NCBI RefSeq assembly: GCF_001021165.1
Contig: NZ_AZAY01000023.1
Coordinates: 1-64,000, forward strand
Reading direction: 5' to 3'
DNA: 64,000 nt
Source of the DNA: Marinitoga sp. 1197
GTDB lineage: Bacteria; Thermotogota; Thermotogae; Petrotogales; Petrotogaceae
The notes beneath the pieces are model-generated. The model did no database searches. It was not told the DNA's origin and saw only the letters and a program-made list of their open reading frames with translations. This document shows, one piece after another, positions 6,307 through 39,129 of the stretch; the first letter of the stretch is position 1, and every line of letters begins with the position of its first letter. The position numbers were made by a program, and so were the translations under genes.

Positions 6307-6382
6307 TGGTGGCCAGGGACAGAATCGAACTGTCGACACCTGGATTTTCAGTCCAGTGCTCTACCAACTGAGCTACCTGGCC
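6307..6382 (-). tRNA. tRNA-Phe (anticodon GAA)
   Basis: A 76-nt cloverleaf. The acceptor ggccagg (6382 downward) pairs with cctggcc, with discriminator A and encoded CCA at 6307-6309. The anticodon loop reads ctGAAaa. It is third in a Glu-Val-Phe operon and is separated from tRNA-Val by about 10 nt. Confidence 0.97.
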
Positions 6383-6392
6383 GCTAATAAAA

Positions 6393-6468
6393 TGGTGGGT
6401 GCTGCAGGGATCGAACCTACGACCTTCTGCTTGTAAGGCAGACGCTCTCCCAGCTGAGCTAAGCACCC
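6393..6468 (-). tRNA. tRNA-Val (anticodon TAC)
   Basis: A 76-nt cloverleaf. The acceptor gggtgct pairs with agcaccc, with discriminator A and encoded CCA. The anticodon loop reads ctTACaa. Middle gene of the tRNA operon. Confidence 0.97.
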
Positions 6469-6480
6469 ACTCGTTTTTTC

Positions 6481-6556
6481 TGGCGCCCCCAACGGGATTT
6501 GAACCCGTGCCTTTGGCGTGAAAGGCCAATGTCCTAGGCCGCTAGACGATGGGGGC
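6481..6556 (-). tRNA. tRNA-Glu (anticodon TTC)
   Basis: A 76-nt cloverleaf. The acceptor gccccca pairs with tgggggc, with discriminator G and encoded CCA. The anticodon loop reads ctTTCac. First gene of the tRNA operon; the promoter should lie at about 6560-6600. Confidence 0.97.
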
Positions 6557-6747: not shown

Positions 6748-6764
6748 AATTGAATATTGTACAT

Positions 6765-6843
6765 CCTCTTCCTGTATAATCCTGGGAATATGGCTCAGGA
6801 GTCTCTACCAGGCAGCCGTAAACTGCTTGACTACAGGAAGAGG
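6765..6843 (+). promoter_or_regulatory. Purine riboswitch aptamer, guanine type
   Basis: All core purine-aptamer elements are present. P1 is formed by 6765-6775 and 6833-6843 (11 bp). Conserved joining bases tATAAt, the loop AATATGG, GTctCTACC and the P3 loop CCGTAAA follow in order. The J3/1 segment reads GACTAC; its C corresponds to position 74 of the xpt riboswitch, which pairs with guanine (adenine aptamers have U). It lies in the purE leader, so guanine or hypoxanthine should shut off de novo synthesis through the terminator at 6865-6900. Confidence 0.95.
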
Positions 6844-6864
6844 GGTGTGGATTTTATATTAATC

Positions 6865-37025: not shown

Positions 37026-37529
37026 TTATTTATCTCTATTTCTATATTCGTTTATTAATCTTTTCACATCTTTTGTTGTTAATCTTCCGTGAACTTCGTC
37101 ACCAATCATTACTACTGGGGCTAGTCCACACGCACCTACACACCTAACTGCATGGATACTAAACATACCATCTTCTGTAGTTTCGTTTTCTGTTATACCA
37201 AGTTGTTTTTTAAACTCTTCAAGGATATCACCCGAACCTCTAACATAACATGCAGTACCTAAACATACATTAATAGGATATTTTCCTTTTGGTTTCATAC
37301 TGAAAAAATTATAAAATGTTACAACACCATATACATCAGATGCATGAACATCCAGTTTTTTTGCTATTATTTTTTGAATTTCAATCGGAAGATAACCAAT
37401 TATTTCCTGAGCTTTGTGCAAAACATGAATTAAATAGCTTCTTTTTGTTACTTTATCTTTGTTTTCGAGGTTTAATGAATCAATATATTCTTCTACTTCT
37501 CTAAATTTGTTTTCAAGTTCTAAAGACAT
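37026..37529 (-). CDS. hndA: NuoE-like 2Fe-2S subunit (HndA/HydC type)
   Basis: A 167-residue NuoE-family protein, first gene of the [FeFe]-hydrogenase operon. The helical N-terminus (YLIHVLHKAQEIIGYLP) leads to the 2Fe-2S ligands CLGTACYVRG near residue 90 and RCVGACGLAPV near 130. GGAGGG precedes the ATG. The 300 nt upstream carry repeated TTGTGAA-type elements (37591-37673). Confidence 0.95.
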   Translation of the reverse strand: MSLELENKFREVEEYIDSLNLENKDKVTKRSYLIHVLHKAQEIIGYLPIEIQKIIAKKLDVHASDVYGVVTFYNFFSMKPKGKYPINVCLGTACYVRGSGDILEEFKKQLGITENETTEDGMFSIHAVRCVGACGLAPVVMIGDEVHGRLTTKDVKRLINEYRNRDK

Positions 37530-37817: not shown

Positions 37818-38028
37818 TAAATGATTAATAGGGTGTCCAATTAGTAAAGTAAGCGAAAACTCGCAGATTGTCCGAAAAAATAACGAATGATGCCGGTCAA
37901 TTTTGCACGGATGCAAAATACCGAACATGGATGTGAGTCTGATATGACCGGCGAGAATGAGCTATTTTTGAGGATTAACAATCAAGGTTTGAGCGACTTT
38001 ACTTTTTGGACATCGTAAATGATTAATA
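37818..38028. mobile_element. MITE-like element with 13-bp flanking direct repeats
   Basis: A 185-nt element (37831-38015) is bounded by exact copies of taaatgattaata (37818-37830 and 38016-38028), consistent with a target-site duplication. Its ends form imperfect inverted repeats: GGTGTCCAATTAGTAAAGT (from 37832) against the complement of actttactttttggacatc (37996-38014). Inside, gccggtca (37892-37899) pairs with tgaccggc (37945-37952), and attttgca/tgcaaaat (37900-37907, 37912-37919) forms a perfect inner hairpin. It carries no transposase, so it would be mobilised in trans. It is clearly more GC-rich than its surroundings. Confidence 0.75.
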
Positions 38029-38061: not shown

Positions 38062-39129
38062 TTAAAACAAAAAAATTGGTTCTGTTATATACCCCATCAT
38101 TATAATATCTAAATATTTAGAGTCAATATAAACAGCTTCTTTACGTCGTCCCTCTTCAACAAAACCTAATTTTTTATACAAAGAGATAGCTTTTATGTTA
38201 TTTGAAAAAACTTCTAATTCGAGTCTATGTATATCGGGATTTTCTATACACCATGTTATATGATTGTTAATTAATGTTGTGGCTATACCCATATTTCTAA
38301 AACTTTCAAGTACACTAATTCCCAATTTAGCAGTTTTTTTTAATCTTTGTCTTTGAATATTCCAATAAATATCAGCATTACCTATTATTTTATCAGTAAA
38401 TTTTGTAACTAATATCCTTAATCCAAACAATTTTTTTGATAAGTTGATGATTTCCTCAAAGTCTTTAACTGTTTTATTAAATTCGTTTAGTTGAGTTGCC
38501 AGTGTAGTTGAATTTGAAAAAACTTTTTCATAAAAATTAATTATCTTTTTTGAATCATTTTTTTGAGGATTTGTAATATATATACCATGCGAATTTAATT
38601 TATAAATATAAAAATTTCTTATATCAATAGTATTTTTGTTTGATAATAAATTTTTAAAATTTTTTTGATTAGAATATACGTTTATAACGTATGAGTTATT
38701 GACAAAGTAAGAAATATCTTTTAAAGTTTGAGTAATTAAATTTATATTTTCATTTTCAAAAAAAACAAAATCTACAACATTGTTTTTTAATATGTAAAAT
38801 GCCAAAATTTTATTATATTCCTTTAAATAGCGAATTTTATATCCATTTTTATAAAAATTTACCAAATCCCATATAGTAAATGGAATTAAGGAATTTTTTG
38901 ATAATTTTAAAATTGAATATATAAGACTATTATCTGGAATAAAATTTTTGAAACTTTTTTCTTTGCTTTTTTCATTTTCTATTTCTAAAACATGTAAAGT
39001 TCCTATATTATTCATATAATAAAAGTCACTTTCTACTTCGGAAAAGAAGTAAACATCTCTTTTAGGTATTTTAATTATTGAATCGAGTATCTCTATAAAT
39101 TCTAATTTATCTTTTATTTTGAAAAACAT
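38062..39129 (-). CDS. GNAT acetyltransferase with an unknown N-terminal domain
   Basis: A 355-residue protein. The C-terminal half (about 190-355) is a GNAT domain: GISVLESFRNMGIATTLINN is the acetyl-CoA loop and HRLELEVFSNNIKAISLYKKLGFVEEGR the typical end, close to RimJ/RimL or PhnO-like proteins. The first 185 residues are rich in Phe, Tyr and Asn and match nothing I know; they might be a degenerate GNAT copy. The target is unknown. The start codon has only a weak GGAG site. It is last in the comM-side group of minus-strand genes. Confidence 0.75.
   Translation of the reverse strand: MFFKIKDKLEFIEILDSIIKIPKRDVYFFSEVESDFYYMNNIGTLHVLEIENEKSKEKSFKNFIPDNSLIYSILKLSKNSLIPFTIWDLVNFYKNGYKIRYLKEYNKILAFYILKNNVVDFVFFENENINLITQTLKDISYFVNNSYVINVYSNQKNFKNLLSNKNTIDIRNFYIYKLNSHGIYITNPQKNDSKKIINFYEKVFSNSTTLATQLNEFNKTVKDFEEIINLSKKLFGLRILVTKFTDKIIGNADIYWNIQRQRLKKTAKLGISVLESFRNMGIATTLINNHITWCIENPDIHRLELEVFSNNIKAISLYKKLGFVEEGRRKEAVYIDSKYLDIIMMGYITEPIFLF

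Follow-up and report, generated by a model that had tools for sequence, protein, structure and literature searches.

The segment enclosed by exact 13-bp direct repeats in the gap between a GNAT gene and hndA is one copy of a non-autonomous transposon (MITE). The window, here and below, is the whole stretch of 64,000 nucleotides of Marinitoga sp. 1197 that was analysed. Judged by its sequence, the element has as its core a folded RNA of the TwoAYGGAY family that is strongly conserved. The element is described here as a mobile structured-RNA module, that is, a MITE with TwoAYGGAY as cargo, moved in trans by a DDE transposase and putatively binding CsrA; taken as a whole, this description is considered reasonably probable. 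Features of the element are listed in Table 1.

Table 1. Features of the element, with positions in the window
Feature	Position	Strand	Evidence
Left target-site duplication copy, TAAATGATTAATA	37818..37830	.	Sequence; flanks compared across all copies; site empty in five sister genomes
MITE, type A subfamily, 185 bp	37831..38015	+ (the TwoAYGGAY fold strand)	39 own-genome matches; scattered copies that have duplications of their own
Left terminal inverted repeat, GGGTGTCCAATTAGTAAAG	37831..37849	+	Pattern at 24 genome places, 0 for the reversed control pattern
Right terminal inverted repeat, CTTTACTTTTTGGACATCG; reads inward on the - strand as CGATGTCCAAAAAGTAAAG	37997..38015	-	Pattern at 25 genome places, 0 for the reversed control; resembles IS ends
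Right target-site duplication copy	38016..38028	.	Sequence; flank analysis; empty site
TwoAYGGAY-type RNA core, 8 nt absent after hairpin 1 in the window copy	37852..37990	+	R1 covariance model, E = 5.5e-26
Hairpin 1, ATTTTGCA-CGGA-TGCAAAAT, loop GGA	37900..37919	+	Fold; stem covarying in relatives
Hairpin 2, ACA-TGGA-TGT, second GGA loop	37925..37936	+	Alignments; loop retained in 97/108 copies

The element is short and non-coding (no ORF of 70 aa or longer) and bears terminal inverted repeats, as is usual for the MITE class. The terminal repeats, imperfect over 19 bp, were noted in the first-pass annotation and are real, as are the exact direct repeats and the 185 bp between them. Both neighbouring genes lie on the - strand (GNAT stop at 38062, hndA start at 37529), which places the element in the gap where it had been reported. 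Comparison of the flanks of all copies identifies AAATGATTAAT as the certain 11-bp core within the 13-bp duplication. Outermost bases of the element are often T and A across the family; if the element is taken to end in AGGG...TCGT, 11 bp are duplicated, and two bases of the 13 may match by chance. A terminal T and A are common to many targets, so the exact length of the duplication is not fixable. The nested stems that had been read in the sequence are likewise genuine: the + strand folds at -65.3 kcal/mol (z = -6.4, 0/200 shuffles as good). The predicted fold of this 185-bp imperfect palindrome is a single long hairpin that branches internally.

Mobility, as proposed at first reading, is confirmed by dispersed copies, their individual duplications and an empty syntenic site. 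The same ends occur with different flanks across the genome (2.27 Mb, 51 contigs), in which 39 matches to the element were found, far more than chance would give, about 24-25 of them full length or nearly so, with 76-100% identity. Most of these copies have their own direct repeats of 7-13 bp. Type A, to which the window copy belongs, has a direct repeat of at least 8 bp near the ends in 20/24 copies, against 17.5% for mismatched flank pairs. Type B, a second subfamily of the same genome with a few copies in relatives, has direct repeats in 26/32 (22.5% in mismatched pairs). For types D-G (G001, G003, G005) no convincing duplications were found in the stretch tried. The empty site was sought in relatives and found in five congeneric genomes (G001, G002, G003, G004, G006), all of which retain the GNAT-hndA order; their aligned flanks join where the element sits in the window. 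Neither a lack of further copies nor conservation in relatives without the duplication was observed. A fixed, non-mobile RNA gene or leader between coincidental repeats would agree with the strong RNA-like covariation described below; it is already refuted, however, by the dozens of differently flanked copies with their own duplications and by the empty syntenic site, and has next to no probability. Some type A copies (L019, L023, L024, L025; C1, C6, C49 and C16 of the own genome) are interrupted by a palindromic repeat, TTTTACGCTTAGATTTTTTATA...AAAAAATCTAAG.

Bacterial MITEs moved in trans by resident IS are described as a general class (PMC3049150). The element resembles them in its short length, AT-rich flanks, terminal inverted repeats, target duplications, high copy number and lack of an ORF. 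It differs from them in its interior, which in the window family is a covarying RNA family that is also found with other, unrelated ends. Copies are intergenic (139/142 outside long ORFs) and show no orientation preference; no preference for sense gene leaders was detected in the same copy set. A REP/BIME-like palindrome, moved as single-stranded DNA by a Y1 (HUH) transposase, would likewise be palindromic, intergenic and of high copy number, and some neighbouring Clostridia copies stand in inverted pairs. Such an origin is nevertheless very improbable in view of the target-site duplications of types A, B and C and of terminal inverted repeats that resemble those of a DDE transposon. HUH transposition of the REP/BIME kind is not known to leave target-site duplications.

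The candidate vehicle is a DDE transposon. Its transposase (DDE_Tnp_1) is encoded at two contig ends of the own genome, C1:67370-68104 and C50:1-664, where the assembly breaks inside the transposon. Decayed longer copies are present in G001, G003 and G004. One end of the transposon reads TAGCCTGTCCAAAAAGTCTAAAG; the opposite end, taken from the G004 copy, reads TAGAGTGTCCAAAAAGTAAG. A full IS sharing the termini had been called for: the candidate is this decayed DDE transposon with similar ends, of which no intact copy was seen in this assembly. The IS4-type origin suggested in the first-pass annotation is unsupported. NCBIfam scores of the transposase are 39 bits for IS982, 32 bits for IS5 and 29 bits for IS4, all below cut-off, so that the only transposon found in the own genome with similar ends fits IS982/IS5 better than IS4; an IS4-family transposase with matching ends was not found. 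The MITE ends resemble those of this IS5/IS982-like transposon, which have the form TA..(G/C)TGTCCAAAAAGT. Type A ends, including those of the window copy, match it at only 13-16 of 20 positions, and its transposase is under all NCBIfam cut-offs. The left end of the type B MITE is identical at 19/20 positions to that of the G002 transposon copy. An IS5/IS982-like DDE transposase, which would recognise TGTCCAAAAAGT-type ends and duplicate about 9-12 bp, probably mobilises the window MITE in trans. Lone-end matches at C10:97801, C2:35071 and C8:73280 were considered as candidate autonomous elements, and none encloses a transposase.

That the nested structure could be a folded RNA had been suggested as well, and is right; it is not an alternative to the MITE reading. 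The conserved core corresponds to the TwoAYGGAY RNA motif (Rfam RF01731; Weinberg et al. 2010, PMC2864571), first matched in Rfam scans of relatives. Published passages on the motif describe it from Clostridiales, gamma-proteobacteria and human gut samples. Sister copies in the own genome score 45.6-52.2 bits against a gathering cut-off of 43, the best with E about 1e-7 per genome. The window copy, 8 nt of its core being absent, is below this threshold and is recognised by the R1 covariance model, built from alignment A1 of 28 cores. Matches to RF01731 number 14 in G000, 24 in G001, 15 in G003, 13 in G005 and 2 in G002; 0 were found in 14 genomes of other genera of the same family. Copies recognised by R1 in the seven congeneric genomes number 70, 40, 5, 25, 1, 35 and 1 (total 177). 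The core shares with the motif of PMC2864571 the multi-branched fold and two hairpins with AYGGAY loops, and the sister copies exceed the gathering score. Unlike the motif as presented in those passages, it occurs here as dispersed MITE cargo in Thermotogota, with the window copy itself below threshold. Pattern-scan matches in genome contigs were dominated by Gammaproteobacteria, and 0/4 of those checked with Rfam (L230, L239, L257, L286) were TwoAYGGAY.

Conservation of the fold was assessed on 108 distinct copies. Standard base pairs occupy 97.4% of cells (shuffled 76.3%, slid 34-48%) and double-sided compensatory changes are present at 31/39 pairs, pair counts that come from an alignment fitted to the model and therefore lean toward it. 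The covariation score is 0.565 (shuffled 0.182, slid at most 0.102). Compensation is also visible in the MAFFT alignment, as in CAATTTTGCA-YGGA-TGCAAAATTG, CAAAATCACA-YGGA-TGTGATTTTG and CAAAAAAACA-GGA-TGTTTTTTTG. GGA is retained in loop 1 of 105/108 copies, in loop 2 of 97/108 and in both loops of 95/108, the window copy included. G-U against A-C pairs, a weak test of the strand, stand at 56:41, which becomes 56:25 when the two loop-closing pairs are left out. With G-U exceeding A-C only modestly, the case for an RNA strand comes chiefly from the loops and from Rfam homology.

The CsrA consensus is RUACARGGAUGU, in which ACA and GGA do not vary and the GGA is presented by a hairpin loop (PMC4347634). 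Both hairpin loops of the core fit it, with GGA in the loop. TwoAYGGAY is proposed as a CsrA-binding RNA in Clostridia in the passage on the motif by Gardner and Eldai (2015; PMC4333381). One csrA gene is present in each of the seven congeneric genomes, adjoining fliW in both genomes inspected. In the own genome (C25) csrA overlaps an ORF of 326 aa that resembles two tandem FliW domains (L465:1429-2645), and the same is seen in G001. The fit of the loops, the earlier proposal and the presence of CsrA in all seven genomes make a transposon-borne CsrA ligand likely, and CsrA binding when transcribed is the most likely molecular role of the core. The core strand would be transcribed from a promoter inside the element or adjacent to it, and one CsrA dimer could bridge the two GGA hairpins of the transcript. 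Dozens of copies would then supply many CsrA-titrating or CsrA-marked transcripts per genome. Titration in trans, or neutrality, fits the intergenic copies without sense-leader preference better than control in cis does. As in the CsrB/CsrC and RsmX/Y/Z sRNAs, GGA lies in hairpin loops and there is more than one site per RNA. The present RNA, a putative CsrA ligand, differs from these in being transposon-borne, with two sites per unit and dozens of units.

A cis-regulatory insertion, through which CsrA would come to control the hnd hydrogenase operon, is suggested by the position of the element in the gap upstream of hndA and by the Rfam typing of TwoAYGGAY as cis-regulatory. This is highly doubtful. 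The strand with the GGA loops runs antisense to the hnd mRNA, about 300 bp separate the insertion from the hndA start codon downstream of it, the conserved sequence near that codon is unbroken, and five relatives without the element retain the operon. No promoter-like signal reading into type A or type B copies was found, the window copy included. Little effect on hnd is to be expected from the antisense GGA strand, the distance, the loss of 8 nt from the core and the lack of promoter-like sequence reading into type A, and the window copy probably does not control the operon.

The same core occurs with other ends. Type C (G001, G003) has ends CAGACTGTTGACAAA ... TTTGTCTACAAACTG. Most type C copies are located at Rho-independent terminators, with the whole terminator hairpin duplicated on both sides (e.g. 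G001:C1:676875-677017 and G003:C7:294672-294815). The mean repeat score of 27 copies is 17.1, with matches up to 31 bp, and that of mismatched flanks 6.1, with a maximum of 10. TTGACA-like and AATAAT/TAATAT boxes read into the core in 22/26 type C copies, against 1/26 at the other end. Given inward promoter-like boxes and a duplicated terminator, type C insertion could form a promoter - TwoAYGGAY - terminator unit, the neighbouring gene retaining its own terminator. No transposase was found for the type C ends. These ends are unlike those of the IS1634-type transposons of G003 (NCBIfam 378 bits, many copies), which were for that reason dismissed as candidate parents of the G003 elements. Further subtypes are found in G005, nested within other copies. 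In some of these (e.g. G005:C2:1620371-1620517) the inserted TwoAYGGAY element replaces the hairpin 1 region of its host.

One core is, on sequence comparison, common to transposon ends of two or more unrelated kinds, and the core appears as the persistent unit. This bears on a purely selfish MITE family, in which the palindromic core would be retained only as a DNA aid to transposition or replication and the resemblance to CsrA sites would have no cellular role. The intergenic copies without orientation preference, the lack of promoter signals in types A and B and the weakness of the strand test for RNA all accord with such a family. It is nonetheless judged rather unlikely. The core is common to ends that are unrelated in sequence and in target choice, and is for that reason not the recognition site of one transposase; furthermore, the GGA loops are conserved on one strand in two phyla. 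The mobile-module description may be extended, tentatively and with the odds somewhat against it, to the following: TwoAYGGAY is a nomadic putative CsrA-binding RNA, carried on several unrelated transposon ends, which in some species inserts at terminators to become a promoter-driven unit closed by the duplicated terminator and which, in bulk, titrates or taps the Csr network.

Beyond the Thermotogota, a Lachnospiraceae genome (G022, from L255) with seven genes for CsrA contains 32 copies of TwoAYGGAY. These copies are dispersed repeats of about 260-690 bp and fall into two or more subfamilies. Their outer stems reach well past the Rfam model and are unlike between the subfamilies. A Ruminiclostridium MAG has six TwoAYGGAY matches and one CsrA gene.

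MITEs are already known, as is TwoAYGGAY as a motif of unknown function. The literature passages on the motif make no mention of its mobility. The one paper found to cover both CsrA and MITEs treats them separately. A structured, CsrA-site-like RNA carried as cargo by two or more unrelated kinds of transposon ends appears to be new within the literature searched, most subscription journals lying outside it. TwoAYGGAY, without a function on record since 2010, proves to be mobile here and reaches high copy numbers in two phyla. Mobility and high copy number would explain its scattered occurrence and give a tractable test bed. If CsrA is bound, these would be selfish elements connected to a regulator that acts globally after transcription, and so a bacterial counterpart of the SINEs derived from RNA genes. 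The likeness to these eukaryotic elements is an analogy only, in that a structured RNA is amplified as a non-autonomous mobile element; unlike them, the window family has DNA transposon ends with target duplications. The terminator-duplicating type would let an insertion build an insulated RNA gene without harm to its neighbour.

Elsewhere in the window, a purine riboswitch (88 bits) is located at 6752-6853, near three tRNA genes at 6310-6556.
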